Assembly: GCA_963922205.1 (NCBI GenBank)
Contig: CAWUHX010000025.1
Location: 372,001-436,000, forward strand
Length of the DNA stretch: 64,000 nt
Origin: Romanomermis culicivorax
Taxonomy: Eukaryota; Nematoda; Enoplea; Mermithida; Mermithidae
Direction: 5' to 3'
Numbering within the stretch: the stretch's first letter is position 1; the number at the start of each line of letters is the position of its first letter. The notes under the pieces were generated by a model. It worked only from the letters and a program-made list of their open reading frames with translations. It was not told where the DNA came from and made no database searches. This document shows, piece after piece, positions 3,734 to 58,447 of this stretch. The position numbers were made by a program, and so were the translations under genes.

Positions 3734-4938
3734 TCAAAAGTGCTTGATGAAATGGACAACAGTGGGAGTCTCCAACTCCGTAATAGAGTACTTTTTCTCA
3801 GCTGCTGTTAACCCTCCACTGGCATACGCCACAGTATGATTGTGTCCATTATCAACTAACTGGCTTAAAATGGCTCCTATTCCCCAAATACTTGCATCAG
3901 TTTGAAGGATTTCGTAAAGTCCAGATAGTGCAGAATGAGATGGTTTGTCAGCAATCATTGGAGTTCGTTGGACACCTCCTGCTGAGGTTTTGACCACAGG
4001 AAAGTAATTTCCTTCCGTAAGAGCTTGGTTAGCGGCTCGCTGAGTTGGGCACAACCAGGGATGAAACGCCTGTAGTATGACACAAGACCAAGGAAGGACT
4101 TGATGTCTTTGGTGTTCTGTGGAATGGTTAGATTTTAGATCGCAGCCAGTTTGACTTTATCCGGTTCCAGGCTGCTCTGTGAGATGCGATAGCCAAGATA
4201 TTCCACCTCAGAATGCACGAATTTGCACTTGCTCAGTCTGAGCTTCATTCCACCCTGACAAAGATGGGAAAACACGTTCATTAGGTGCTCAACCATCTGG
4301 GTGTGGGAGTTTCCGAACACCAAGATGTCATGGAGATAGGTCAATGGTGTACGCCACTGTATTCCTGTAAGGAGCAGGTCCATGGGAAGTTCGAATGTCC
4401 GAAGGGCGTTGCATTGACCAAAAGGCAGATAGTTGAACTAGTAAAGTCCAATGGATGTATTGAAAGCCGTCTTTTCTATGTCTGCCTCGGCAATTGTTAT
4501 TGACTAGTAGGTGTTAGCCTGATCAAGAGTACTGAAGTACTTCATACCCTTGAGTGTGTCGAGGATGTCATCTATCTATGGGAGAGGGTAGACATCGTTT
4601 TTTGTGATGTTGTTAAGCCCATAAAAATGGACACACATCTGGTGTGACCCATTTTTCTTGTGCACCAGGATGGTATTCTTAGCAGATGGTGACATGCTCA
4701 GCCAGATAATACCTTTCTCCTGTAGCACCCTGACTTACTGCATGATGAGGCCCTTTTCCTTAGGTGAGGTCTGATAAGGAAACCAGCAGACAGGGCGGGT
4801 GTCCCCCTTGCTGATCTTGTGCTGCACGAGGTCAATGGAACCTATGTCCTTCTCATCTATGGCATAGAGGTTAGTATTTGCAACCAGTAGGTCAATTAAT
4901 TTGGTCCGGTCCTGTGAGGAGATATTGGAGGATATCAC
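3734..4938 (-). pseudogene. pol: Element A pol: reverse transcriptase and RNase H, broken
   Basis: The segment at 4735-4938 is the RT N-terminal region (HKISKGDTRPV then PYQTSPKEKG). The segment at 4135-4383 is the RT palm and thumb, where the catalytic box reads YLHDI in place of Y-x-D-D, so the first catalytic aspartate of the pair is lost. The segment at 3734-4054 is RNase H, with LQTDAS and the glutamate in KKYSITELE. Several stops and frame changes separate the pieces (4055-4134, 4384-4734). The product could not reverse transcribe. Confidence 0.8.
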
Positions 4939-38730: not shown

Positions 38731-39388
38731 TTAAAATGCTAAGAAATTGTCATCATTACAGCGCAAGCTCTTTTATGACGAACAATGGACTTTACCATAT
38801 AAACTTTTCTATTTTCATCTGGTGCTTGGCGCCGAAAAGTTTCACCATTTTCACTGGCCACCTTTTCAGTTTTCAAACCCGAGGTTTGTCCCGATTTTTA
38901 AAATTAGGGTCTCAAAATACAGATCTTTCAAGAGGAAAACTGAGTCGTCGTGAAATCTGTTGATAATAGACTCCAGAGAAGTGTTTTTCAGCTCGTACAT
39001 CTGTACCAATTGGTGCAAGAGGCCAAAAAAATTGTGCCAAAAAAAAATTTTTTTCTCGTTTTCGTTAGAAACATCCTGAAAACTGTGAGAAGGTTTCAAG
39101 CAAATATATAACTACGCACTTTACTGCACAGAATGGATACATGTAAATGCGCACCGGTCCAATAGTATAGTACAGATAATAAAGGTATCACAAATGGTAG
39201 ACAAGGGCCACCTGGAAGATGCGATGATTTCTGAGTAATTTCCATAAAGATGTCTTCTCCAGAGCTGTGCAGCTCCCTAAACGGTATAAAAATCTTGATG
39301 AAATTTTACCTATACTGTAAAAAATGCATGAGCTATAAAATAAGAAAATATAATTCTTAAACTTTCTAGATACAATACCAAGAGTGCC
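38731..39388. other. AT-rich spacer without recognised genes
   Basis: Only short, unrelated ORFs on both strands. No repeat or RNA gene is seen. Confidence 0.3.
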
Positions 39389-39782
39389 TATTCTCTTCTG
39401 TATAAAATGAATATTCATTTGTCGAATAAGACTACTTCAATCTGGAAATATAGCTTGGCTAGCAAGACCTTAAACTTATCATAGGGGACGTCAAACCTCT
39501 CAGAAATCTAACCTTACACGATTTCTGAGAGGTTCGACCTCCTCTATGATAAATTGAAAATTCACTATCTCAAAATGAGTTATTTTTAGTGTTCTCATGC
39601 GCTGAGTTTCAGGGTATCATTGGTTTTGCTTGAAAAGGAAAATTCACACTGCTACAGCATGCCAAAGTTTATTAATGTACGTATTTTTGGCATTTTTCAG
39701 CGGTCTTGCTAGCCATGCGATATTTCAGGATCGGATTGATGGCATTTGACAAATGAATATTCATTTCACACAAGAGAGAATA
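39389..39782. repeat. Nested inverted repeat next to the Polinton
   Basis: Outer arms 39389-39469 and 39702-39782 are imperfect inverted repeats sharing AAATGAATATTCATTTGTC and GGCTAGCAAGACC. Inside, a second pair of arms (about 39477-39507 and 39521-39551) shares AACCTCTCAGAAAT and forms a hairpin. It may be a foldback element or part of the left terminus of the Polinton. Confidence 0.7.
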
Positions 39783-39975
39783 AGCTTTCTTTTAATTCAA
39801 TATTTACAGTATGTAGTTGTATTGCAACTGAAATATACTGTTTTTACTGCTTTAAGTATTATTCCATGCATAGTTATTTGGCAGTGCATGAGACATGTTA
39901 TGGTTGCATGTACACTGTCATTATTAGTGACCAGTATGTTTTTTCTAATACACAGCTTTGTGTTTTGATTCTTGA

Positions 39976-40320
39976 TCATACAAGCAGTTGGTGACTTTGG
40001 ACCCTGTGCAAATGAATGAGTTTTTTGAAGCTATCTTGCAGCTCACCAAAGTTCTTGGCTCCTGTAATAATAATTTTTCCATTATGAAAAACCGATGCAT
40101 GCAAACCCTGCTCATTAATCATATATTTCAGTGCAGGAAACAGCTCCAGAAAATAATCACATCGACCTCTATGAGTGTTATAGAATTGTTCGACATTTAT
40201 ACAATAATCTACAGAATATGACCCAACAACATTACCCATTTTAATTTTCCTGGGTCTTGGCTTATAACCAAGTTTGAGCAGTACTTCTGCAGCATTTTCA
40301 GAATAAGCTTTGCTTTCCAA
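39976..40320 (-). pseudogene. TBP-like protein (TATA-binding protein repeat)
   Basis: 114 codons, starting without an ATG (TTG at 40320) and overlapping the end of the upstream gene by 23 bp. Order of motifs: a helix AAEVLLKLGY, as at the end of the first TBP repeat; then NVVGSYSV; INVE and TH; ELFPALKY; VFHNGKIIITGAK. These match the second repeat of TBP in order and spacing (VGS, LE...TH, ELFPGL-Y, F-SGK---TGAK). TBP binds TATA boxes to place RNA polymerase. The first repeat is mostly missing, so this is a truncated gene or overlaps its neighbour. It is far more diverged than any animal TBP should be, so a recent host copy is unlikely. Confidence 0.7.
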
Positions 40321-41083
40321 AGTGTAACTTCACAATAGTTTTACCAGTGACAAATTTTATAGATCTGTCTTGATCTGTTCTAATTGAAATTTTGATAGGA
40401 TCAATATCTTTTACCAGTACAGGCAAATAGTGAGCAGCTATATATATCTCATCTATAATGTCACCAAAAGCTCCCTCTATATTAACAATAAGGAGGGAGG
40501 AGAGGAGTAAAATATCACCAGCAATCTGTTGTTCAATGATGTTACAATAAACATAAATGGTTTCAAGACCAGCCTTCATATCAGCGAGATGTGCAGCAGC
40601 AATTTTCAATTTTTCAGAAGTAGGTGTTTCTAGTTGTGATTTCGCAAAGCCCAAAAGATAGAGTAAAGGATCACTTAATTTTATGCTCTTGATTCTAGTC
40701 AAGTTCACTTTTAGAACAATTGCTCTGGCTAATCTCCTATATGAAAATTCAATAAACTCATTAAATGGAACTTTTTCCTGTTCACTCAACAACCTGATAG
40801 ATTGTTGAATAGCTTCAATTACATCTGTTACAGATTCATACCTCATAGAAGGTACTTTCAGTAATTGACTAGTATTGGTCTGAGAATCATAAAATTTTAT
40901 TACACTATCACTAGGTGTTATATTGACCCATGTATTAGGATAGATAAATTCACAAAGTGCACATTCCCATTCACCTTGCACAATCGATCTATGAGGCAAC
41001 CTAATACTGAAATTTGAAGTTATGTTACTCGGATCACTCTGAGTATTGCTCGATAATGTTGCATAAAACTGTGACGAATCCAT
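40298..41083 (-). CDS. Polinton conserved structural protein, candidate minor capsid protein
   Basis: 261 codons, intact from ATG (41083) to stop. The N-terminal pattern FYATLSSN, then NFSIRLPHRSIVQGEWECAL and YPNTW, and the C-terminal pattern YLPVLVK, then ISIRTDQDRSI and IVKLHFGK, are those of a protein found next to capsid and protease genes in Polintons of many animals. I take it to be the minor capsid (penton-type) protein, but have not shown a jelly-roll fold. A TATAAAAGTT motif lies 28 bp upstream of the ATG (41111-41120). It is one of the few undamaged frames of the element. Confidence 0.65.
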   Translation of the reverse strand: MDSSQFYATLSSNTQSDPSNITSNFSIRLPHRSIVQGEWECALCEFIYPNTWVNITPSDSVIKFYDSQTNTSQLLKVPSMRYESVTDVIEAIQQSIRLLSEQEKVPFNEFIEFSYRRLARAIVLKVNLTRIKSIKLSDPLLYLLGFAKSQLETPTSEKLKIAAAHLADMKAGLETIYVYCNIIEQQIAGDILLLSSLLIVNIEGAFGDIIDEIYIAAHYLPVLVKDIDPIKISIRTDQDRSIKFVTGKTIVKLHFGKQSLF

Positions 41084-41110: not shown

Positions 41111-41120
41111 AACTTTTATA
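41111..41120 (-). promoter_or_regulatory. TATA motif of the candidate minor capsid gene
   Basis: Minus strand TATAAAAGTT, ending 28 bp before the ATG at 41083. Same motif as at 45066-45075 and 46507-46516. Confidence 0.65.
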
Positions 41121-41130
41121 TCCTGTCGCG

Positions 41131-41610
41131 CTACTCAGATAAAAATGCATTATCATATATGGGAGTATTTATTCTAAAGAGACTGTTGATAAAGCCAGTG
41201 ACAAATTCATCAGTGAAGCTTTGTTCCAAACTAGCAGCAATATCTTTCATACTTATACCTCTAACCATCCACACAAAAAAGTATACACATAACTGACCAC
41301 ATGTAGCAGTCAAGTACTGTTGTACGCATTTGGTATTCCACTTGTAAGAAGTAGCTATAGTCTTGATGTAATTCCTAAGCTGTTGACGTGGTTTGAGGCC
41401 ATAACTGTCAAAATAACAACATGTGTGTTTTTTATCAACAAACAGAGCTAGACAAAGTGAACTAGGTTCATCCAGCTTGTCTAGATTTACAACCAATGCT
41501 GTGGGTACAGTGTTAAGAGGTGGTAAACAGTCTATAGGGAATACTCCATTGAAGATTTGTCTGAGAGCTTGTTCTCTATTCATAAAGATGTAGATTTCAG
41601 AGGTATTCAT
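41131..41610 (-). CDS. Adenovirus-type cysteine protease of the Polinton
   Basis: 159 codons, uninterrupted. CCYFDSYGLKP is the family hallmark around the acidic active-site region, and ATCGQLCVYFFVW carries the nucleophilic cysteine. Where the catalytic histidine is expected (G-x-H-W before the FDSYG block) the sequence reads SSLCLALF, so the histidine appears lost. In adenoviruses and Polintons this enzyme matures capsid proteins. Its ATG overlaps the stop of the capsid gene as ATGA (41607-41610). The frame is intact but probably inactive. Confidence 0.8.
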   Translation of the reverse strand: MNTSEIYIFMNREQALRQIFNGVFPIDCLPPLNTVPTALVVNLDKLDEPSSLCLALFVDKKHTCCYFDSYGLKPRQQLRNYIKTIATSYKWNTKCVQQYLTATCGQLCVYFFVWMVRGISMKDIAASLEQSFTDEFVTGFINSLFRINTPIYDNAFLSE

Positions 41611-42928
41611 GCAGTGTAGTCATTAAAGACGTGTCTATTTTTATCAATCATAATAAAGTTGTCAGATTCTGCGTGAACAATAACGTCTATACCTGCATCA
41701 GGTATCCTATCAGCAAATGTCAATTCTATACTTGTAGAACCATCTCTAATCAAGTCTCAATGTTCACTATCATCTTCATCAGGTGTAAAATCGAAGGCCA
41801 AGTAGCACAGTCCATTTTTAAAATTGTGTCTGCTAATGCCATTCCCCTTGTTATCTTTAGCCATGTCTAGAGTTTCAAAGAGACAACCTTCAAAGAGACA
41901 ATCTTTTCATAGGCTCGAATATATTTGTTGTTAGCAAAATCAAGTCTTAATGGAGTCCCTGGAAAAGCTCGACCACCAGAGACAACCTTGACTTGACTTA
42001 TACTGTAACATTCAAAATTAAATGGAGATTTTTTGATTTCTTCACAAAATGCATCTGCACCAACCCATGCTATAATCATGCTATGTGGCAACTGACCAGG
42101 GAATAGAGTATTCAGAGGTGTAGATTGTCTTGCACTAGCAATATGAAGGTTGACCATTTGGATTCACCTGATAGGATATTTAACTGGTGTTTTTAACATT
42201 GTTTTTTCCAGAGACAATCCAACACTTTCCAGCACTTCAACATTCCTGATGAAGAGTTTCACCTATGAAACTTCCAATTTTGCATTTTCTGCATCACCAG
42301 CTGGGCACTGTAATACAAATGAATTAGTATTGTCGATCACTTCCAGTTTGAGCTCAGTATTGCTGAGTAAATACTGATCTTGCATTAGAAGATCAATATG
42401 AAGAGGAGCTGTTATTTCCACTGTTTGACCATTTTTAAAGCACTTTACCCTGTCTTTAAAGCCCTGACAATCAGAAGTATCTATTCTAGGACCAGCTTCC
42501 ATAGTATATAAAGAAGACTGTAAGTAGCTATTTTTAGCATCAAAACCGAAATTTAAATCAGTTTCAAACAATGCTCTGTAGGCATACTGATCCCCACTAT
42601 CATGAATGAGATGATCATTCAGAAAGAGCTTCACTTGTCTGAAAAATGCTTTACCAATCAGATTGATAGGTGCAATTACTGGTGCAGCTCTACCAGCAGG
42701 AACTGTGTAAATAATTTTCAATGTCATGTACAGATAATTTTTGCTAAGCTGAATCATATGAGGATCTGGAGGTATACAAAATTTGTATGGACCATCATTT
42801 GTGATAGGATTTGTGGGGTTAACTTCATCCCAGTAGCCTCGTTTAATTACTACTTGTGTCAGAGGTACAGTGAAAAAGTCCAATTCAGACTTTGTACTAA
42901 TACTAGAAATTGTATCAATTAGAGCCAT
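41607..42928 (-). pseudogene. Polinton major capsid protein (double jelly-roll type), broken
   Basis: The start is placed at the ATG 42928 (MALIDTIS), not at 42970, because 42970 lies inside the TATA motif. TKSELDFFTVPLTQ, then YLYMTLKIIY and INLIGKAFFRQVKLFLND, are hallmarks of the Polinton capsid proteins often labelled F54H12.2-like. An in-frame TAG lies at 42263-42265, and a frame change occurs near 41870-41905, where TTCAAAGAGACAA is tandemly repeated. The last part (FADRIPDAGIDVIVHAESD) runs to a TGA at 41607. Total about 438 codons, at the short end for the family. Confidence 0.8.
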
Positions 42929-42967
42929 GCTTCCTTCTCTTCTTCTTTGAGAATATATCATTTTTCT

Positions 42968-42979
42968 CATCTTTTATAC
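42968..42979 (-). promoter_or_regulatory. TATA motif of the capsid gene
   Basis: Minus strand GTATAAAAGATG, about 40 bp upstream of the preferred ATG at 42928. Confidence 0.6.
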
Positions 42980-43098: not shown

Positions 43099-43335
43099 CT
43101 AATCTCCAGCAATATTTGCACCTGTGGATAGTGCTTGCTTACCAATATAACCAGCAGCTGACTTAGTAACAGGAATGGGCATTCTGAATAATGATCTAAA
43201 TAAGCTTCCTAAACCTCCTCTATGCTCATAGGGAGTGCCGTTGAAGCCTTTGAAACCATAGCCAGTTTGTTCAGCTTGTTCAGTGCAGTACTGAAGCCAA
43301 GTTGTATAATCTTCCCCACTGAAGTATTGTCTCAT
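43099..43335 (-). pseudogene. Small Polinton structural protein with GLGSLFRSLFR motif
   Basis: 78 codons from ATG 43335. GYGFKGFNGTPYEHRGGLGS is followed by LFRSLFR, MPIPVTKSAAGYIGKQAL and STGANIAGD; this Gly-rich stretch followed by an amphipathic, basic segment is a conserved small Polinton protein, comparable in style to adenovirus pVI or pX. The frame stops at 43099, earlier than usual; the same frame shows further stops up to 43020. A degenerate TATA-like AAAGTATAAA sits at 43371-43380. Confidence 0.6.
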
Positions 43336-43371
43336 CTTTATGAATTTACAAAATGCTGAGAATTACAGGAT

Positions 43372-44065
43372 TTATACTTTTCCAAATTCTAACCATCTAG
43401 ACTTTGGTGTAATGCTTTTGGGTACCTTAATTTTTTTACCATCTACAGGGTCACTTGGGGAAGCAAATGTTTCATCACTTTCACTTCCCACATTTAACCT
43501 GGACTTATTTACAAAAAGATCTTGAGGTACATTCTCCTTTAAGAGGTTATTTACAAACAATTCTACCCCTATTGCTTGCTGATGTCTCGGACTAACTCTT
43601 GCCACATCTGAAATCAAATCAACAATGTTGGCTCCACTTATTTTGGTGCCTTTCAGAATCATCTCTTCTTTATTGGACCACTCCATGTGTGGATTACCTT
43701 TAGCATAATCTTATGAAATTTAACTTGACTATGCCACTTTTTTGGTACAATTTGCATAGTTTTTTCATACAGCACATTTTTTCTCAGGATAACATCAACA
43801 GCACTTTCAGCAGTGTCTGGCTTTTCTTGCTTAGGTGTCATCCCTTCCAGATTGTCAACTCATAGCATCTGGTTTGATCCTGCATAAACTGCCTATATCT
43901 GTGCAACACCTGATTGTATAAGATTATCTTCCTGTCTGAGGACAAGGACTTATTAGTTAAAATATCATTTATTTCTTTATCCAAAGCACTCATTACATTG
44001 GCTGCTATATCCTCCCTTTGAACAATGTCATGTGGTACAAGAATCATTTTATTTGTATGCATCAT
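43372..44065 (-). pseudogene. Polinton conserved protein (candidate virion protein), frameshifted
   Basis: Three overlapping frames make one gene: 43838-44065 (KMILVPHDIV, then KIILYNQVLHRYRQFM), 43659-43841 and 43372-43686 (TKISGANIVDLISDVAR, then NNLLKENVPQDLF). The pattern matches a conserved Polinton protein of unknown role, found between ATPase and capsid genes. The last two frames are joined by frame changes near 43840 and 43685. Its start overlaps the end of the next upstream gene at 44062-44065. Confidence 0.6.
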
Positions 44066-44467: not shown

Positions 44468-45044
44468 TCAGCTGAAAATATCGAGTTCATCAGGTGTTGT
44501 TTGAGAAAAATCAATAATTATATAACTGTATAGTTTAAGTGTGGCATCTTCAAAAGACTTGGAAAAGTACTTTACTTTATTAGGAAAAACTGTCTTGCCA
44601 AAGTTTTTACTTAGAGCCTATCTGCATTCTTCATCAAAACAAAGTACTGTGCATTTATTCTAGATGTTCTTAGACACTCAAAGATAACATTTTGAACAAT
44701 GTGTATCACAGACAAATTCATGTGCTGACATCCAGGAGTGAAAAGAATGTCCAAGTGGTTATTTTTGCTATTTCCTGCATCAGATCACGTATTATAACAA
44801 GCTGAGGTGCAGGACTCAGCTCTCTAATCAAGCTCATGTCAGGTAACCCCTGATAGAAGTTGACTCTGTCAGACAAGTGATTATACACTGGCTGCTTCTC
44901 AGTAAAGAACCAGTGAATATGTTCCAGAACTGGTTCAATCGAGTACTTCACATTTAGTATTAAATGCTTTACAAAGGTTGTTTTACCAGCTTTTGTAGGG
45001 CCAGCAACAATACATTTAAAAGGATGATTAAATTTTAGAGCCAT
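44468..45044 (-). pseudogene. Polinton genome-packaging ATPase (FtsK/A32 type), frameshifted
   Basis: ATG 45044; Walker A is AGPTKAGKTTF (residues 14-24). The Walker B position reads LVIIRDLM, where the family has two acidic residues (VIDDLM), so a key aspartate is replaced by arginine. The first frame ends at 44718; homology continues in another frame with ILFTPGCQHMNLSVIHIVQN and, at the C terminus, a stretch ending DELDIFS before TGA (44468). An in-frame stop lies near 44620. This enzyme pumps DNA into capsids in viruses of the same fold group. Confidence 0.8.
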
Positions 45045-45065
45045 ATTTTTGTTCTATAGATTTTC

Positions 45066-45075
45066 AACTTTTATA
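45066..45075 (-). promoter_or_regulatory. TATA motif of the ATPase gene
   Basis: Minus strand TATAAAAGTT, 22 bp upstream of ATG 45044. Confidence 0.65.
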
Positions 45076-45155: not shown

Positions 45156-46139
45156 TCATGGTTCAGTTTTCATACTGTAGCTATATAGTTTCATCAAATC
45201 TGTAACCCAACTATTGAATTTATCTGGATGACCCTTCCATCTAACAAAGTATTTAGTTTTCCCAGCCCTTTTTCTCTCTCATATAATCTTTTCTATAATG
45301 CACACATCTGTAATCTCATCAACTTTCTGTAATTCTGGCTCATAAAATACACTGTGTATGACTTCTCCCAGCTGATCTTCTACTATGTATACAGGAGGAT
45401 GTCTAGCTTTTTGCTCACAAATCACAAAAACTTCATCACTCCTATTGGGAGTGTAAACCTTCTCAAACATCCTCTTGACTTTGGTTATGCATACCTTGTC
45501 ACCAGAGAACAGTTTAATATTTACACTAGACTTACATTTCCTAAAAACCTTCTCAACAATTTCAGCTTTATTCTCATTAGTAACATCAATAGGAGCAACA
45601 CCTATGGTCTTATGCCCAGTCAAGTTGTAAGAGCTTAGCAGGTGGGGTAGAACATCTAAGTACTTGTATGCATTTTTCTGAGTAAAATGACGCCACATTC
45701 TTTCCTTTCCAGTTCTGTTTAACTGCTCAACAATGCTAGCTTTAGTTTCACTAGCAGTTATGAAAAAATTAATGCCAAGTTTCTTCAATAAGGCCTGGAA
45801 GGCTTTGTTTGTAAACTCTGTACCAGCATCAGTCTGTATTTTTCGTGGCTTCCTGCTAGATTTCAAAATTGTTTCAAAGGTGTATAAAATAGATGATGTA
45901 CTTTTATGTTTCAAGGGTACACACCATGCAAACTTTGACAGGACATCTATGCATATTAATAGGAATTTGAACCCATCATTATGTTTGGCGAGTGAGCTGA
46001 GATCTGCAAGATTCATTTGCCAGTGTTCATCAATATCAGTAACTAGTACAATATTCCTGGGGTAATGGCGCCTAGGATACTTGTATACAGTATATGTTGG
46101 CTGTTTTTGTAACCATTCCTTAACAGAGGACGGGGTCAC
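45156..46139 (-). pseudogene. Polinton integrase with C-terminal chromodomain
   Basis: Retroviral-type core: the first catalytic position reads WQMNLADL (family: D instead of N), the second is IQTDAGTEF and the glutamate is in IVEQLNRT. The N-terminal part SVKEWLQKQPTYTVYKYPRR is the usual Polinton lead-in and extends upstream, with stops, to about 46240; the open frame itself begins at a GTG. An in-frame TGA at 45279-45281 is followed by a chromodomain (KYFVRWKGHP, then SWV) ending at 45156. Chromodomains guide integration to marked chromatin. The D-to-N change should block catalysis. Confidence 0.85.
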
Positions 46140-46287
46140 ATTAGTGTTTAGTGCTTTGGATAGCTTGTACAGGTTTTGTATACTACAGTATCCCTGCTGG
46201 GATTAAAATATATGCTCTCATACAGCTTGTCCATCTTTCTGCACCATATTATGGCCAAACTTTTATTTATACCTCTGCTAGGTTGAA

Positions 46288-47184: not shown

Positions 47185-47192
47185 TATAAAAG
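47185..47192 (+). promoter_or_regulatory. TATA motif upstream of the polymerase B fragment
   Basis: Plus strand TATAAAAG followed by CTGAG, about 100 bp upstream of ATG 47293. Same motif class as the minus-strand genes. Confidence 0.55.
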
Positions 47193-47292: not shown

Positions 47293-48470
47293 ATGAAAAG
47301 TGTTACTATATGTAAGTGTGAGTTGTGTGAAAAATATTTTTCATGAAAGAATGGCCTTCAAAAGCATATCCATGTTATCTATGATGGTCAGAGGTTCAGG
47401 TGCCCACAATGTTCTGTGGTATTCACACAGAAAAGTACCCTCATGAGGCATGTAAATTCGAGACACCAAGCTCAGAATTGCCTTTATTGTGATAACTGAA
47501 TTGTGAACCAGCTGGGCATGCTTTCAAAACAACACATTGACTCATGCATTGTGATCAAACCAAATGAAGCTGCTGCTAAACCTGCAAGGATGGATAAAGA
47601 GGACTCCCCTCCTGAAAGCCTCATCAAGAATGATCATGATATACCAGAGGGCCTTACTGAATACCCAGATGAACTGGGAGAAGAGATAGCGAGCTATTGG
47701 CGTCTGATCAAAATGAGGAAATCAACAACCAACTTGCTGGACCACCAATGCAACTACAGGTGGGCCTTAATCAATGGAAACTTTATCACCATGGTTCAAG
47801 ATATTTACCTAACAGAACAACAATGCTTTCGAGTGAATGGAGCTATTGGGTGCCTCTTGAAGAATGGAGAAACAGGTTAGGTAAAATACTGGTATGCCTG
47901 CCATAATAATTCCACTTTATTTGATCAACCTGCTCTTATACAAAATGATGAAGATGCATCAAAAGTCTTGAAGGACCTTATGGAAATGGATCTGACAGAA
48001 AAATTCACATGCCAAACACCAAGTGGCACTTGGCAGCTATCACAAATGTTGAATTCTATGTAATTCCACAGGTTAATTTTGTCGCAGGATGCAAAGGCAT
48101 TCAGCTACCATTGCAGACAGCTCATCAGGGACACAACCTCTTAGGAATAATGCATGATGGGCAGCATAATAAATTTGATGACAACCTGTGTCTATTTTGA
48201 TGCTTAGTTCAATGTATCAAAGGAGACTTTGAGGACAAAGACTTTTTGTACAAATGTTTCATCAAACATTGTGCAAAAAAAGGCAGTCATTGACTGTCGA
48301 TGAATTTCAGGAAGTTACTTTTGAGGAGATGGACATTGTTGAAGATTTATTTGATGTTGATATACAAATATTTCATATGAATGAAAATGGGGACGCAACA
48401 TGTTGGTGAAATGTCATAAGGAAGCATAAATATTTGATGAATTTGTGCTGTGTAAATTCAAATTGTGCTG
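47293..48470 (+). pseudogene. Polinton DNA polymerase B, N-terminal part with C2H2 fingers
   Basis: From ATG 47293 one frame runs to 48062 through three stops (TGA, TGA, TAG at 47878). It holds C2H2-type fingers: CELCEKYFS, CPQCSVVFTQ and CLYCDN. It continues with a region resembling the N-terminal part of Polinton polymerases: CFRVNGAIGCLLKNGETG, MPNTKWHLAAITNVEFYVIP (48009 on, other frame), NKFDDNLCLF, then FQEVTFEEMDIVEDLFDVDI. Nothing matching exonuclease or polymerase motifs follows. I infer polymerase B because this N-terminal block normally precedes its catalytic part; it could also be a separate gene. Confidence 0.55.
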
Positions 48471-48699: not shown

Positions 48700-51210
48700 G
48701 AAAAACTTTTCCGAGTTTTTCGCCGATGTTTAACATGGGCTGCGCCCCTTTATTTTACCCCTAAGTGGAGTCTCTATACTACTTGAATCACATCCTCATC
48801 TAACCTCTCATCCTGCAATTCATTTTCAGCAGGCAGTTGGACTCAAACTGCATCCCTGAAAGTTTCCTTTCAGACAATTGGACTTTTTGACCAGAAATTA
48901 TGGGAATATTAACTATGCCCACTGCAGTTACCTCTTTGTCCTCACTTTTCAGGCTACTAGCCTTAGTGAAACTAATCTTGGGCTCCAGTTTTGTTACTAT
49001 CCCTAATTGTATGAGTGTTCTATTCCACGTAATTCTGAAGCCAGAGGTCTATGGTTAAACATATTCATAGGGAAGTATATACTATACTCCCTACTTTCTA
49101 CCTTACAGTCATAAACATCCCAACTTTGTTGATTCTAGTTAGCCAGTTCAATCCATGTCTTAGTGATGGCTTTCTGTCTGCTAGCTGGATATGGTAAAAC
49201 CTTAGATAATAATAGGGATTTGAGCTCTAGCTCTTACTTTCCATAGTAATAGTATCAGGGCTACCATATATCAGGGCTACCATATATCAGATCATACATA
49301 TCTGCATTCTTCCACATTCTCAACTGAAAACCAGAATGATTCATCCACACATATACTCTAGCACCTTTTTGGAGTGCCTCATACTCTATGTGCAGTAACA
49401 TCTTCATCAACACCAGATAATGGGCTAACTTTTCTTCTGACCCCCATGCCATTACCTTGCCATTCGCCTGGGCTTCTGGGCTGAAGGATGCAATGAATGG
49501 ATAACTGAACATCTCACAAAGTCCAACTCTTTCCAGCAATGAGGCTAAATCACATGGAAGGCCAGTGGGACTAAGGCACAAGTAGCTTGCATGTCCAAAA
49601 ACTGATTTTCCCCACATTCTTCAGCATACTTCGCCAGCTGAGGATTCCAGTGATCCTTGTCAGAATACTTCATTCCAGGATCTATGTCAGTTATCATGTA
49701 CACTAGATGATTTTTAGAGCATTCAGTAATGCTTGCTCCTGATGATCCTGAAGTAGTTCGACAACTTTCCTCAAGGTATTGATGAACCAAACTATAGATG
49801 TGGGCTGAGTCAGCTCTTGATACTGGTTTCCATGTGCTGGTTACTCTACTTAATCCAGACACAACTTTTACTTAGCCAAAAAGTTCTGTTCAGGCCTAAT
49901 CATTTTGTCATTATTGAGATCACTTGCATCATTGAAGGTCTTGGGCTTTAATTTTTACCTTGGGTATAAATACCTAGACAGATGCCTCACCACAGCAAAT
50001 TTTCTTTCCCCTTCCTTGGGGCGCAAATATCCCAATGGCAATGATATTTTGGCCCTATTTCTTGCACTTGTGTGGCCCATCTTGCATATATATTCTGGTG
50101 CATCATGTGGTAGGTAGCGTCCAACCGCCTAATCACTACATCAGTAGTACCCATAAAGTTCCGGAGTTTCTAGTCCATAATTATATATGAGTGAAACTCA
50201 TCAAATTTATATGAGAGCAATTCAATCTGAGGAGGATCGATAATATCTTGATGAAAGTTAGAAAATGCCCAACAGTTTGATAATGTATCCATAATAAAAA
50301 GCCCCCATAAAGATTGTCAGTGAGAAGCATGCATTTATACCAGGATACTGCAGTATCACCTGAGGAACCTTTTCTTTGGCCACATTTTGCCTATTTTGCA
50401 AAAGACTCAAATTGGTCTAGTGAGGATCAACATCAGCCAAATACATTTAGGCAAAAAGGCCTTTCAATTTACCATCTCTAGGCAGATACTTGCCTTTCAG
50501 GATTTAATAATCTCACTTCCCATTATGTGTTTTGCTGTGACACTCAGGTCATAGTAACTCGCCAGATATCCACCTTTGATACTAGCCCTAATCATATCAG
50601 ACAATTGACGACCATTGGTGCTTTTTCAACATCCACAGACACTGATAATTGAAACAATTTCCTCTAAGATAGTGTAGCCAACTAACAATGTGTCTGAGTG
50701 TAAAAAATGCAACAAAATGTTCTTGCAATTGACGACGAACATCTTAGATTAGAAAATGAAACTAATCTGGCAAAGTGGTTGCTTTTTTGTTATCAATACC
50801 CCACCTAAATAGTTTTTTTGCATCTTCCCAGTTCACCTTCTCCACATTCACTTTCCCCATGTCTGTGGAGTGAGTGGGGAAAATATATTCATCAGCAATG
50901 ATGGTGGGGGGTCATTGATGATAATATTGGGAGGTACAGTAACAGGAGTAAGTCTTGGATATAAGGTAATGTTAACAAGGAGGTGTGAAAGTAAATTTAA
51001 TATGATTCTCTCGTGCAACATTTGAGGTATAAAGTATCTCACAGCTCTACTAGTTGATTGGCCAGTGGAGGAAATGGCTTGAGAAGAGGGCAGGGCAGTA
51101 GTCACAGTAGAAAGAGTAATCGGTGCAGAAGAAGATGTAGAGGAAGTGATGGTAGTTAGGGTTGTAATATAAGTAAAGGTGACTGAAGTAACAGTTGACA
51201 GTTAAGTGGA
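48700..51210 (-). pseudogene. Element G: orphan ORF3 fragment with exonuclease domain
   Basis: In transcript order: a Ser/Thr-rich stretch (51200-51020); VNVEKVNWEDAKKLF (near 50850), matching DVEKVH-DKVAALF of element C but with the first exonuclease aspartate changed to N; HFLHSDTLLVGYTILEEI (near 50700), matching [18 protein letters not shown]; and a mid domain (49261-49862) with CALVPLAFHVI and KLAHYLVLM, matching [10 protein letters not shown] and CLAYYLELA. Weak similarity runs on to about 48780. Many stops. It is a fragment of a third retroelement of the B/C lineage, cut off at both ends. Confidence 0.65.
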
Positions 51211-51956
<746 letters not shown>

Positions 51957-54587
51957 ATGCCTAATGAAAGGATACCAAGAGGTAATACTTTACATAGATC
52001 ACCACCCAGAGTGGCGAGTGCTGGGAATCTTGTTAATTTGGGAGACAGAGATCAGCAACGGCATGCTGCTCCGGACCCAGTGATCCCAGATCAAACTCCC
52101 GCGAGGGTTCAACCATTGCAGCAAAATGCAATGCATTTTACGCCTCAAGACGCAGGCGTACCAATTGACCACCCACCAACGATTGCCATCGATCTGCAAG
52201 AGGCAGGCCCCGCGAATCCAAACCCAGACGCCGATGGACCGCCGCAGCAAAATTTTAAAAGGTCACCGCCGCCAAAGGTCGAATTAGCAGGACCGAAAAG
52301 GGACGTCATCACGCCCGAAATTTGACCAAATTTGGAAGAAAGGGACCCTGAAATCGATCCATGATTAGAGAGGATTCCCCAGGAGCAAGAGCGATTCCAA
52401 CCGCAGGAAAGAGCTCCCGAGATGTCCAATCAAGAGTTGGCGACGCAGCTACGCGAATTGAAAGGGACCGTCGAAGCCTTGTTCGACATCATCGCGAATG
52501 CCGCCACTGAGGACTATAAAAGGGAAGCCGACAGGTGCCGACAGGAGCCGGATAGACAGGTTAGACCATGCAATAGGGGTGCAGAAAGAGACAACCGTCT
52601 AGCTGCTGGAATGAATGCAGGCGCAGGGCCTAGTAATAGGTCTGATATTGATGAAGGGCAAAGGCTTAACTTTGAGCCCAAAAGTTGGAGAGGTCCAGCT
52701 AGAGATCTTTGATTCGAAGGAGCTGAGCAATCGGTAGACTTCAGGAATCAAAATCAGATAGCGACGCAGCATCCAACTTTAACTAGAGTGGTCTATGATG
52801 GTAGAGGAAACATAGTTGATCCAAATACCCTTAGACCAGATCAATTGGCATGTTTCCCATATAGGGACTACAGATTTGACAGAGACAATATCCCATCAAA
52901 TCAAGGAGGTGTACCACCTCAACGAGATCCCAATCGAATTATGCTGCAATCACTCAACTCTGATCTTGATCCAGTATTAACAGCAGCTTATGATCAGAGG
53001 GAGGTGCCATCAAATAATTTGGCACAAGAGATTGTAGTCAGGAATATGGTTAAAGGTGTGTTACCCAAACTTTTAGATGAGGGTATGGTGAATCAGCAGG
53101 TGCTTAGCTTCTTAACAGCACTTGAAGGGGAATTCCGTAGGGATACACCCGAATCAGCTAAGTATGAAGCACTGCTGAGGCTTTCTAAAGGTAGACCGAA
53201 GGCTGTTGCAGGAGACAATATGACCTATAGGGAGGCCAGGAAAGCCATCATAAATGTCTTTGCACCTGAGTGTAACCTGGAAATGTTAACCAGGGAATTA
53301 TTTGAGATCCAAAAAAGACCCAATGAACAGGCCGTAGAGTTTCTAAAAAGGGTCAGTATATTAGTGGAACTAGTAAAGGGTGATTTAGACTATCAGTCTA
53401 AACAGAGACTGATTATTGATACCTTTATATACAAGAGTGATCCCACATTTCAGTCTGAACTGAAAAATTCCAAACATACCTTTAGAACCTGGTATGATTT
53501 AGCAGTTGAAGTTCATGATATTGAACGTAGATATAGGAATGCCTTTCAAAGATACGGACCCAAGGGTACACAACAGGATCCTATTGTTATTAATGAAGTA
53601 GGTATGCTTAGTGGGTATGATCCTGAAATTGCCGTAGTTGCCAGAAGTCAGTCAGAAGGATATCAACAAGGCCAGAGACAAAGGTTTCGGCAACCATATA
53701 AAACTGTAGGTAATCAGGTACCGGCCCAAACCCAAAGGTCAAGGAGTGATTCTCCTGAAATAGAAGAGATTCCAGTTCGGGAAGCCCCTAGGGCTCAGAC
53801 CGAAAAAGGTAAGAAGGAATCTCTTCTATTGAAAATTTCTAAAGAGATGGTACAACTGGTCGAAAGGTTCGATCAGCTTCAGCAAAAGGTTGATAGTAGG
53901 CAAATGGAAAATCTGTCTGATGTGGCCATACCCAGTACCAGTCAGGGAGGTCAAGTTTCCCGAGATCCGACAAAGCCATGGTGTGAGTTCCATAAGAACA
54001 TAACACATAATGCTGCAGACTGCAGGGCCAGCTTCCCTACCTTCAACAGGGGAGGCTTCAACACTTTTGCTAGAGGTAACTATAGAGGTAGAGGAGGTTA
54101 CCCTAATGCCAATTTTAACAGTAGAGGCAGAGGTGTGTATAATATAGGCTATTCAGGTTATCAGGATAGCCACGAGGGTTATCAACAGAATTCCGATTAT
54201 AACGAATTTCTGGAATTCAAGAAGCAAAAGGAGCTGCAGAAGCAGTTCCAACAGATGCAGCAATACCAGCAACAAGCTGCAATACAGCAACCTCAGCCAC
54301 CTCAGGCTATTATGAGACCAACTCAAACTCTTCAACAGGGTCAATTCACAAATCAGCCACCTCAGAAGGATTATTCAAGTGTAATGGTTGCAAGACAATC
54401 ACAAATGAGTCTTTCAGGTGAAGTAAATCAGAGAGTGAACTGCCCAAATGTTGTGTTAGGTAGCATCATTCAAATGAATGCAATTGCGCCACAGCCTGTA
54501 GTACCATCAGTACAAGTAGTAAGGAGAGGCACACCAGCTAGTCCTCAGGAACAACATTTGCTGGATACGTACCCCAGAACAGCCTAA
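51957..54587 (+). pseudogene. gag: Element C gag, with three in-frame TGA stops
   Basis: The frame starts at ATG 51957 (MPNERI) and stays the same to the TAA at 54585-54587, interrupted by TGA at 52323, 52362 and 52710. The N-terminal part is Pro/Gln-rich and disordered. The capsid-like region lies at about 53260-53560 (FEIQKRPNEQAVEFLKRV, then RLIIDTFI). A zinc-like WCEFHKNITHNAADC is at 53979-54023, an RGG-type box at 54045-54150, and the end is Gln-rich. It would form the particle and bind RNA. Confidence 0.8.
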
Positions 54588-55769
54588 TTCCATATTGAGG
54601 TTGTTATAGGAGGTCGTAAGACACTGGCTTTAATTGACACAGGAGCTCAGTGCACTGTCATGTCGGCTAAGTTTCTGAAAGAAACTTTGGGCCCAGATTA
54701 CACTGAATATCCGAGGATATTAAATGTTACGGTAGCCAACGGTAAGACAGTCCAAGCCCATGGGTATATCCAATTTAGGATGGATACATTGTGTGGACAG
54801 TTCCCCGTAAAAGCGATTGTTATACCTGAAGCAGGTGAAAATGTAATTGTGGGTACAGACTTTTTGGCTCATCCTCAGGTAGGAGCCATAATAGATTTCA
54901 GGAATAGGATGATGACGCTCAACAACCGTCAGCAGCGGATATACGTGATGCCGGACCAGCCCCAATCGAATTGTGGAGAGGTCATGACCACGAGCGCCAT
55001 GGAATCCACGGCAAGCGCCGCCGACCAATATCAGCCAAAGATTTGTCTGCTAAAGGTTTCGGTGCCAGTGGTGAGTGTGAATCCAATCTACTTACCAAGT
55101 GGTACTGATATACTTCTGAGAGCAAAACTTTGGGATAAGGTAGGCAATAATCGCCTTAATGGAATCATTATAGAGTCTGAAGAAAATGAGGAAAGGTTCC
55201 ACATTGACAGTACCATAGTTGATGGTACCAAAGATGATTTTGTAGTTATGGTATCTAACAACACAGGATCAGGGTACCATTTGAAAAGAAATCAAATAAT
55301 TGGCCATACTAATTCAGTGTTGTGTGATACTGATAACCAAGATCAACTTAAGGGGAAGATAGTTGAGGATGTGGAGAAGCTGCAAACTTGTGCAGTTCAA
55401 GCTAGACCTGAAGCTCCTGAATCGGATGAAAAAGCATTCAAGGAAGCTTTGTACAATATGCTGGCTAAATCCAGCATACCATCAGAGCAATTGGAACAAG
55501 CTCTACGATGTCTCGCAAAGTATAGAGATGTGTTCAGCTTGCCCAATGATCCTCCAACTACTACACCCTATCTGACCTGTAAAATAAATACAGCTGATGC
55601 AGCCCCTGTGGCAAAAAGGTACCACAGGACTGCTATTAATTTACGGCCACATGTTCGTGAGCATGTCCAAGACATGCTCAAAAAGGGTGTAATTGAGCCA
55701 TCAAAGTCGCCTTGGGCAGCTCCGTTATTCCTTGTAGGTAAAAAGGATGGTAAAAAGGAGTTAATCTAG
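54588..55769 (+). pseudogene. pol: Element C pol, first part: retropepsin and RT N terminus
   Basis: In the same frame as gag, after a single TAA. The protease active site LIDTGAQC is at about 54637-54660 and VIVGTDFLAHP follows at about 54850. A ~150-residue linker leads to the RT entry motif (PVAKRYHRTAIN, then SPWAAPLFLVGKKDG). The frame stops at 55769, where the RT catalytic core should begin: the core with the fingers, palm and the Y-x-D-D box is absent from the sequence. Confidence 0.85.
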
Positions 55770-58447
55770 AGCTAGTCCTGCAAGCTCTAAGAAAGGCTCA
55801 TTTGACCTTGAAACCAGAGAAGTGTGAATTCCTGCCTGAGAAAGTTCATTTTTTAGGACATATCTTAAATTCCGATGGAGTTTCCCCAGATCCGAAAAAG
55901 GTCAAGGCAATAAATGACTTCCCATTCCCAGAGTCTAAACGTGAACTGCTAAGGTTTTTAGGTATGTTGCAGTGGTGTAAGAAGTTTATACCAGGGTTAG
56001 CTAAACATGCTGAACCATTGTATAAATTAACTGGGAAGAACTGTGTTTGGGAAATTACGGAGGTTCACCATCAGGCTTTTAGGAGCCTGAAAGAAGCACT
56101 ATTGTCAGTGCCTTTTCTAAGGTATCCGGTTTTGGACGGGTCTGCGAACTTTGTCCTTCAGACAGATGCCAGCGGAACGGCACTAGGAGCAGTCCTTTAC
56201 CAGGAGGCCAAGTCGGACCGCTGGGTAATTGCTTATAATAGCAGAATTTTAAAGGCGGACAAGAAAAAGTGGTCAGCCACGGAGAGGGAGTGCTTGGCAA
56301 TAGTGTATGGTTTAAAGTTATACAAGCACTACCTAGTAGGTCATAAGGTGATCATAAGAACTGATCACAAACCTTTGTTGTCAATGAAGGTCAATGCCAT
56401 GACCAATGGTAAGTTGAAGAGATGGTACTCATTCATCTCTCAGTTCAACCATAAGCTAGAGTATGTGCCTGGAAAACAAAATGCCATGGCAGACTTTTTG
56501 TCCAGGATGGATGAACCAGATGATCAAGTGGAAAAGATACCGCCAAAATGGGAACACATGTTCTCAAAGGATAAACAAGAGTCTGAAAATCTGAAAGATC
56601 TTGAGGCACAGCTAATTGAGAAAAAGCATCTCAATTTGGTAAAGGGATTCAGAATTCTGACAGATCGGAATCCTGTAGACGGTACTCCGTTATATCCGGA
56701 GCCTAAAGGTAAGAAAAATCAGAGGACCGATATGAGTCCGAGATTCACCCAGATATATCCAGAAGATTCTGAGGGTGATCCAGAATCAACCTCGCCTGCA
56801 GACTTGGTGAATGCCGTAACTCCGAGGAGCATGGCGAGAGAAGCGGAGAAAAGTGATCAGGCTCAGATCCAGCCTGATGGCAATCAGGTTAAGGAAAAGG
56901 TAAGTAGGGGAAACCAGGAAAAAAGTAAGGAAAAAAGAGTTACCTGGTTATGCCCAGAAAAAGAACCGGAGTTTACTTTGGCAGATCCCAAGGAAAATGA
57001 GTTGCCAAAAGGGCTAATTAGAGATGATCTCATGGCCCTCTTGCAGAGAAAAGATGAGGTATTACGACCATACTTTGATAGATTGGGTCCAAATGGGACA
57101 ACCAAGTATCACAGTGGATTTTATATCCAGAATGAAGTGTTATACCGCCAAGTCGGACAGGGGTCGGACGATCAAGTGGTCGTCCCATCCTGCCTTAGGG
57201 ACAATACTTTGCACCAGTACCACGGTGCCGTAATGATGACTCATCAGGGGTTCAAAAGGACCCTTGCTATGATTAAAAAACGGTTCTGGTGGCCTGGAAT
57301 TGAAAAGGATGTCAGGCACTGGATCAAATTTTGTCCAGTATGTCAAATGGCTAATCAGGGAAACACGGAAATTCCTCCACTGATACCAATTATTCCACAA
57401 GGTCCTTTTGACATAGTATCAGTGGATATCATGGGTATTTCTCCACTTAGTGAGAAGAGACCGTATGTCATAGTCTTTCAGGACTATTTTACAAAGTGGG
57501 TTGAAGCTGAACTGATCCCAGATCAGTCAGCTAGCACCATTGTAGATACTTTTCTACAATCTATTGTATTTAGACACGGGACTCCACGGAGACTACACAG
57601 CGATAGGGGAGGTTGTTTTACCTCAGATCTGATGAAAGAGATCTGCAAGTTACTAGAGTGTCAAAAAATTTATACAACAGCCTACCACCCACAAGGTAAT
57701 GGTATGGTAGAAAGGTTCAATCAGACACTCATCAAACAGCTCAGAAAGGTGGCCATAGAAGAAAAGGATAATTGGCCAAGATACTTGAGAGCCGTGGTGT
57801 TTGCTTACAATGCCACACCACATGCAGCCACGGGGCAATCCCCATTTTCATTGCTTAGAGGTCATGAGGCAACCTTCGGGTTAAACTTATCGAAAGCATA
57901 TGACATTGTAATGCCGGACATCAATGCAGAGGTATACAAATTTGTGTTGACCAATCATTTAGTCAACCTTTACGAGGATATTGCCAAAAATATCCAGAGT
58001 GCTGCTGAAAATTCGAAGAAATACTTTGATAAAAAGTCAAAACAAAATGGGTTCAAGAAAAATGATTGGGTTCTGCTCAAAGTAGACAAGCAGAAAAAAT
58101 TAGGACTACCATGGTCTGGTCCATTCATAGTTACGGACATATCGCGAGAAGCGGAGAATGTTGTGACCATTGTACATTGGGACAACCCGCTAAATCGCCA
58201 AACTGTTTCAATCAGCAGGTTGAAACATTTTCATTGCGAGACCACTAGGGTCTTGCCACGAATAGCGCGAGCCAATCAGGACGCGCCAGGTGACGAAAAT
58301 ACGTCACTTTCCAATATGGCACAAACAGTTACGACTGGAGCGCCAAAAAAATTAAATCATTTGGAAATTCGCTCAAGGCGAATCTATGCGCAATCTCGCG
58401 CTGATTTTTTTTTAATTATGTACATATCTCGCGCGTGTAGGTACTAA
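55770..58447 (+). pseudogene. pol: Element C pol, second part: RT thumb, RNase H, integrase
   Basis: The 881-codon frame (55802-58447, upstream codons from 55770) starts at the end of the RT palm (LTLKPEKCEFL, HFLGHIL). RNase H keeps LQTDASG, ERECLAIVYG, IRTDHKPL and NAMADFLSR. A ~160-residue charged spacer follows, then integrase: HHCC domain ending CPVCQ, catalytic VSVDIMG, LHSDRGG and MVERFNQ, and the C-terminal LPWSGPFIVTD. All RNase H and integrase catalytic residues are present. The frame differs from 54588-55769, consistent with an internal deletion of about 450 bp that also shifted the frame. Confidence 0.9.

Follow-up and report, generated by a model that had tools for sequence, protein, structure and literature searches.

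The window analysed here is a stretch of 64,000 nucleotides (nt) of the nematode Romanomermis culicivorax (contig CAWUHX010000025.1, positions 372,001–436,000), and its coordinates are used throughout. It contains an open reading frame of 117 amino acids (aa) at 39976–40329 on the minus strand, measured from stop to stop, which is the last gene in the capsid/protease set of a Polinton and follows the capsid, protease and X261 frames immediately downstream on the same strand. An earlier note on this DNA had proposed a Polinton gene for a TATA-binding protein (TBP), co-directional with the capsid and protease genes and strongly diverged from cellular TBP, and the motifs of the second TBP repeat that it named are indeed present in the frame. 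The profile search suggested there was positive: Pfam TBP PF00352 matches with E = 5.5e-15 and 55.4 bits (curated cut-off 22.9). Solved TBP structures align to lobe 2 and to the inter-lobe helix that the note had placed before it (best 7z7n_D, E = 8.3e-16). Both DNA-intercalating Phe residues of lobe 2 are present, and identity to the lobe-2 exon of the host TBP (L009) is 37.5% over 72 aa, in keeping with the proposed divergence.

The window copy has lobe 2 only. Alignment to six window-type copies (L021, L023–L025, L027 and L028) showed that 220 nt are absent relative to L025; the gap begins at the TBP ATG, ends within the linker and has an ATG at each edge. The loss has removed lobe 1 and shifted the reading frame, so that the original TBP start no longer reads into lobe 2; the sole in-frame ATG is at the start of lobe 2. 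Compared with the intact two-lobe copies, the window copy is therefore, as judged from its sequence, a decayed and broken relic of a two-lobe Polinton TBP gene. What stands of the earlier proposal is a TBP inside a Polinton, while a working single-lobe gene is unlikely in view of the deletion and frame shift.

We searched the 359-Mb assembly holding the window with the PF00352 profile and obtained at least 150 scored TBP-lobe matches (of 438 candidates), grouped into 110 places. The same genome has at least 149 matches to X261 (146 of 1114 candidates scored), and X261 is found upstream of TBP, on the same strand and within 2.5 kb, at 81 of the 110 places. Conversely, a TBP among the matches listed lies downstream of at least 70 of the 105 X261 matches whose 3' part is intact, a lower bound since the matches listed lack even the window copy. 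A Polinton gene is nearby at 91 of the 110 places, one place is the host gene and 18 fall outside this check.

Twenty places, mostly top-scoring and thus non-random, were fetched with their flanks (L009–L028). One of them, L009, is the host TBP; it is intron-bearing with the lobes in separate exons, which look nematode-like to us. The other 19 all carry Polinton genes. Window-type genes are seen in 13 of them, although L022 has just a fragment of X261. The remaining six (L010–L013, L018 and L019) carry PolB or the N-terminal portion of it, and four of these (L010–L013) also have a weak X261 homolog. Pfam scans of the copies thus place PolB in related TBP-carrying elements. In the stretch L032 the genes follow one another as capsid, protease, X261, TBP and PolB, and PolB lies within 10 kb of TBP also at C1:1311279 and C296. 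In a PolB search of the genome (80 of 1000 candidates scored), a second PolB family, grouped by the same profile start, had a TBP within 25 kb in none of its 71 matches, among the TBP matches listed. TBP therefore appears to be restricted to certain Polinton lineages. This other abundant family is seemingly intron-bearing (C203:500500-506500, here L033, and 70 other matches); in L033 the motif TATAAAAG has just two occurrences (5805 and 5862), both past the PolB frames.

Uninterrupted two-lobe TBP frames of about 170–192 aa are present in 17 of the fetched copies, so the full-length two-repeat versions that the earlier note recommended looking for do exist in related Polintons of this genome. 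Six of them were scanned against Pfam TBP and scored 127–150 bits, each with the two-lobe saddle that the window copy lacks. The TBP ATG lies 2 nt past the X261 stop in each of the six window-type copies aligned. Of 14 pairs chosen for the ratio of nonsynonymous to synonymous divergence (Ka/Ks), 13 gave values of 0.10–0.30 and one had saturated silent sites; Ks was close to 2 for the most distant pairs. These ratios indicate that the two-lobe Polinton TBPs are under purifying selection.

The window and all 17 aligned copies conserve both stirrup Phe residues of lobe 2. Lobe 1 of the copies retains its first Phe; at the second position window-type lineages have Tyr, and the L016, L010 and L018 types Phe. 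The TFIIB-contact motif YEPELFP keeps its first Glu in the L010 and L018 types, and its second Glu in all aligned copies but L027. We take the DNA- and TFIIB-contact roles of these residues to be as in cellular TBP. Divergent TBPs with both Glu residues lie at 4815–5327 of L018 and 4781–5314 of L010.

Identity to the host TBP is 29–36% for the two-lobe Polinton copies, 79% for a fungal TBP and 38% for an archaeal TBP. A recent retrocopy of the host gene, the alternative raised in the earlier note, is ruled out by the first two figures. In a tree of 14 rows (midpoint root, with long-branch warnings) the Polinton TBPs form two groups, one of them consisting of L010 and L018, and a profile of the Polinton copies is closer to eukaryotic than to archaeal TBPs.

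TATA-like boxes were counted in 12 stretches (L014–L017, L020, L021 and L023–L028); L022, which has no TATAAAAG, was excluded. All 48 occurrences of the extended box TATAAAAGTT fall on the gene strand, with none on the other and 0.45 per strand in shuffles, and TATAAAAG alone occurs 57 times on the gene strand and 6 times on the other (5.1 expected). L016, the most distant lineage, has TATAAAAG and no TATAAAAGTT. The TATAAAAGTT boxes are found near the starts of the capsid, X261 and o87 genes. In the upstream pieces of eight stretches, TATAAAAG precedes X261 in 8/8, the capsid gene in 6/7 and o87 in 5/7, the other two reading CATAAAAG. It precedes the ATPase gene in one of three rows, the other two stretches beginning inside that gene, and was found upstream of the protease in none of seven. 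The o66, o112 and o96 rows (0/22 with TATAAAAG) are unusable as controls, since these pieces lie inside larger L025 frames and have no gene starts. This pattern, with boxes before X261, capsid and o87 and none before the protease, suggests a few transcription units, and in the window type TBP may be read together with X261. The TBP gene itself has TATAAAT(A) upstream in L016, L018 and L019, in the latter two as TATAAAT at a distance of 46 nt from the TBP ATG. The TATAAAAG boxes that survive in the window are those at 41120, 42978, 44257, 45075 and 46516 (−) and at 47185 (+).

The surroundings of the relic are those of a Polinton, with X261, an adenain-like protease, capsid pieces, o87/o112, ATPase pieces and an rve integrase, all of them upstream of it on the same strand (Table 1).

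Table 1. Features of the Polinton and its immediate surroundings in the window.
Feature	Position	Strand	Basis
Fold-back (MITE-like) repeat, outside the gene set	39361–39810		arms 39361–39469 and 39702–39810, 109 nt, 73% complementary
TBP relic: linker helix and lobe 2, without lobe 1	39976–40329	−	Pfam PF00352, 5.5e-15; PDB TBPs; deletion relative to related copies
X261, conserved Polinton protein directly upstream of TBP	40298–41083	−	no Pfam match; 149 genome matches; upstream of 81/110 TBP places
TATAAAAG(T), 37 nt before X261 ATG	41113–41120	−	motif scan
Maturation protease (adenain-like)	41131–41610	−	window copy without Pfam match; L025 homolog Peptidase_C5, E = 1.2e-4, 83.6% identical
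o96, capsid piece 2	41867–42157	−	within the same 448-aa L025 frame as capsid piece 1
Major capsid protein, piece 1	42263–42970	−	90% identical to part of the 448-aa L025 frame
TATAAAAG beside capsid gene start	42971–42978	−	counterparts in L023, L025, L028
o87, piece of a conserved frame (149 aa in L025)	43099–43362	−	homology to L025; no Pfam match
o112, conserved piece	43372–43710	−	within a 247-aa frame of L025
Packaging ATPase pieces (44718–45053 and 44611–44784)	44611–45053	−	L025 homolog Pox_A32, E = 3.8e-5
TATAAAAG(T), 31 nt before ATPase frame ATG	45068–45075	−	motif scan
Retroviral-type integrase	45279–46202	−	Pfam rve, 2.6e-12
Right Polinton terminus, AGTAGTATAGAG	48772–48783	−	resembles end sequence of L022–L028

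The integrase that characterizes Polinton/Maverick elements is thus found in the window itself, and capsid, protease and ATPase were assigned through Pfam matches of their L025 homologs, to which the window pieces are 84–90% identical. The 448-aa capsid frame of L025 matches the Double jelly roll-like domain with E = 3.7e-4, below the Pfam cut-off. Both capsid pieces of the window fall inside this single frame, and the window Polinton copy is therefore broken. AGTAGTATAGAG matches exactly at the right end (48783), yet three matches with at most two mismatches were found against 3.4 expected by chance, so the right terminus rests on the longer likeness to the ends of other copies. A left terminus was searched for in the window with the end sequence and not found. 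PolB was sought in the plus-strand frames right of the integrase in the window, where the only match was a C2H2 zinc-finger frame inside the right part of the Polinton (47347–47496 (+), Pfam 3.9e-6). The fold-back repeat, resembling a miniature inverted-repeat transposable element (MITE), lies directly downstream of the TBP relic. Further to the right, frames judged by eye to be those of a Gypsy-like retrotransposon (gag, protease, reverse transcriptase/RNase H and integrase) are found at 52941–58447 (+).

Searches of about 5.8 billion proteins yielded nothing for the window half at E ≤ 10, and nothing for a two-lobe copy at E ≤ 0.001. IMG/VR scans with the window half, X261 and two TBP alignments gave no confirmed match, which does not show absence, since a match had to be confirmed with a single diverged sequence. 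Genome contigs yielded three TBPs when scanned, one archaeal and two from contigs of metagenome-assembled genomes (MAGs). The latter are eukaryote-like two-lobe TBPs on contigs filed as bacterial MAGs (TMED88 and Allomuricauda; L030 908–1621 and L031 827–1621) and possibly come from a eukaryotic virus. Phage records held only a haloarchaeal virus TBP, matching the window half with E = 0.3 and the L018 TBP with E = 4e-16. Structure prediction, also recommended in the earlier note, first gave a single-sequence model that was poor (predicted local distance difference test score 50) and whose fold matches were discarded; a second model was TBP-like, though built with three TBP relatives and hence not independent of the alignment. 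The BFVD fold matches are mostly giant-virus TBPs, four of them with E ≤ 0.001 (e.g., Moumouvirus), and include the TBP of a crab bacilliform virus (E = 0.19).

The best explanation of these observations, in which we place slightly better than even confidence, is an element-encoded TBP that serves the element's own TATA promoters. It draws on homology, position and gene order, the two-lobe copies, purifying selection and the strand-specific TATA motifs. Several Polinton lineages of this genome encode a complete, eukaryotic-type TBP with two lobes, which probably binds the element's own TATA boxes (TATAAAAGTT in window-type lineages) and nucleates initiation by RNA polymerase II at the structural genes. 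The element could in this way gain promoter control that is less dependent on host TBP. Service of the element's own promoters gains support from the strand-specific boxes near structural gene starts, and since whole, selectively maintained TBPs lie beside TATA-box promoters, these Polintons probably supply some of their transcription machinery themselves. More tentatively, and with rather less than even confidence, a small integrating virus whose host is probably an animal may run its own core-promoter system, made up of TBP and the stereotyped extended box TATAAAAGTT before the main structural genes; two or more divergent Polinton groups may have retained or gained TBP, so that capsid genes could be switched on independently of host TBP levels.

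Several points weigh against a dedicated promoter system. The 12 stretches counted are related copies of about three lineages and not independent events. L010–L012, L018, L019 and L022 lack TATAAAAG, and L013 has a single, misplaced one. Some of the boxes are located within frames or away from any clear gene start, and the presence of a frame-opening ATG within 160 nt, seen for 43/60 boxes and 3205/5200 random gene-strand positions, does not set the boxes apart. TATAAAAG is moreover an ordinary TATA box that the host TBP should bind too. The first Glu of YEPELFP is replaced in window-type and L016-type copies, and no TFIIB-like frame was seen among the frames of the window and related copies scanned with Pfam.

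The lost Glu could also mean that the Polinton TBP mainly disturbs the host, titrating factors or occupying host TATA promoters as a non-productive TBP with conserved DNA-facing residues, while host TBP serves the element's boxes. We consider this unlikely, since both Glu residues are retained in the L010 and L018 lineages, the gene lies within the element's gene set and the element has TATA boxes of its own. The TBP genes of L023 and L025, which end about 0.9 kb from an element terminus that itself contains TATA, would fit a protein that bends DNA at the termini to assist replication, packaging or integration and is not a transcription factor. This role is nevertheless improbable, as TATAAAAG boxes lie near several gene starts and the TBP of L032 stands between the structural genes and PolB and not at the end. 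We give still less weight to a working short protein in the window (a homodimeric half-TBP or an inhibitor): lobe 2 is open to its stop and begins with an in-frame ATG, but the deletion shifts the frame, the capsid and ATPase genes of the same element are split and its left terminus was not found. That the copies are host TBP paralogs or pseudogenes near Polintons by chance, as the host gene in the same genome and the 18 places outside the Polinton check might allow, has next to no probability and is already contradicted by the fixed position behind X261, the uninterrupted two-lobe frames, their low identity to host TBP and the purifying selection.

To our knowledge, Polinton transcription has been little studied. 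We found no report of a Polinton TBP or of a repeated TATA motif in Polintons in the literature searched, which was covered in part, so that an earlier report is possible. The available parts of four papers report no Polinton TBP (PMC10675990, PMC10132985, PMC11464507, PMC12085832), and TATA is not mentioned in those of PMC8097293, PMC10328495, PMC10120064 and PMC11071308, TBP having been looked for only in PMC10328495 and PMC11071308. As far as the accessible text goes, TBPs are named in elements with mirusvirus-like capsid genes (PMC10675990).

An element-encoded TBP serving the element's own promoters would have its closest known counterparts in three systems. The Polinton copies share the two lobes, linker helix and stirrup positions of cellular eukaryotic TBP (PF00352), but have uninterrupted frames, are carried by a mobile element and add TBP lineages at least as far from the host TBP as an archaeal TBP is. 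Virus-encoded TBPs are already established in double-stranded DNA (dsDNA) viruses, according to the sections available to us (PMC7221094, PMC10132985): two-lobe TBPs occur in 38 dsDNA viruses, with the DNA-contact Phe residues mostly kept and host-contact residues diverged (PMC7221094), and in 59% of mirusviruses (PMC10132985). As in giant viruses, mirusviruses and poxviruses with their TBP-like proteins, a virus-type element here has its own TBP. The carriers known there are mostly large viruses, whereas ours is a small integrating Polinton, to which virus-encoded TBPs would thus be extended. Nearly all TBP-carrying viruses, poxviruses excepted, also have a TFIIB-like protein in the same partial source (PMC7221094), unlike the Polinton frames scanned here. 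From other Polinton/Maverick elements, with which they share the integrase, the double jelly roll-type capsid, the adenain-like protease, the A32-like ATPase and, in related TBP-carrying copies, PolB, these elements differ in the TBP gene and the repeated TATA motif. Such a TBP next to stereotyped TATA boxes would be a directly testable switch for capsid-gene expression.
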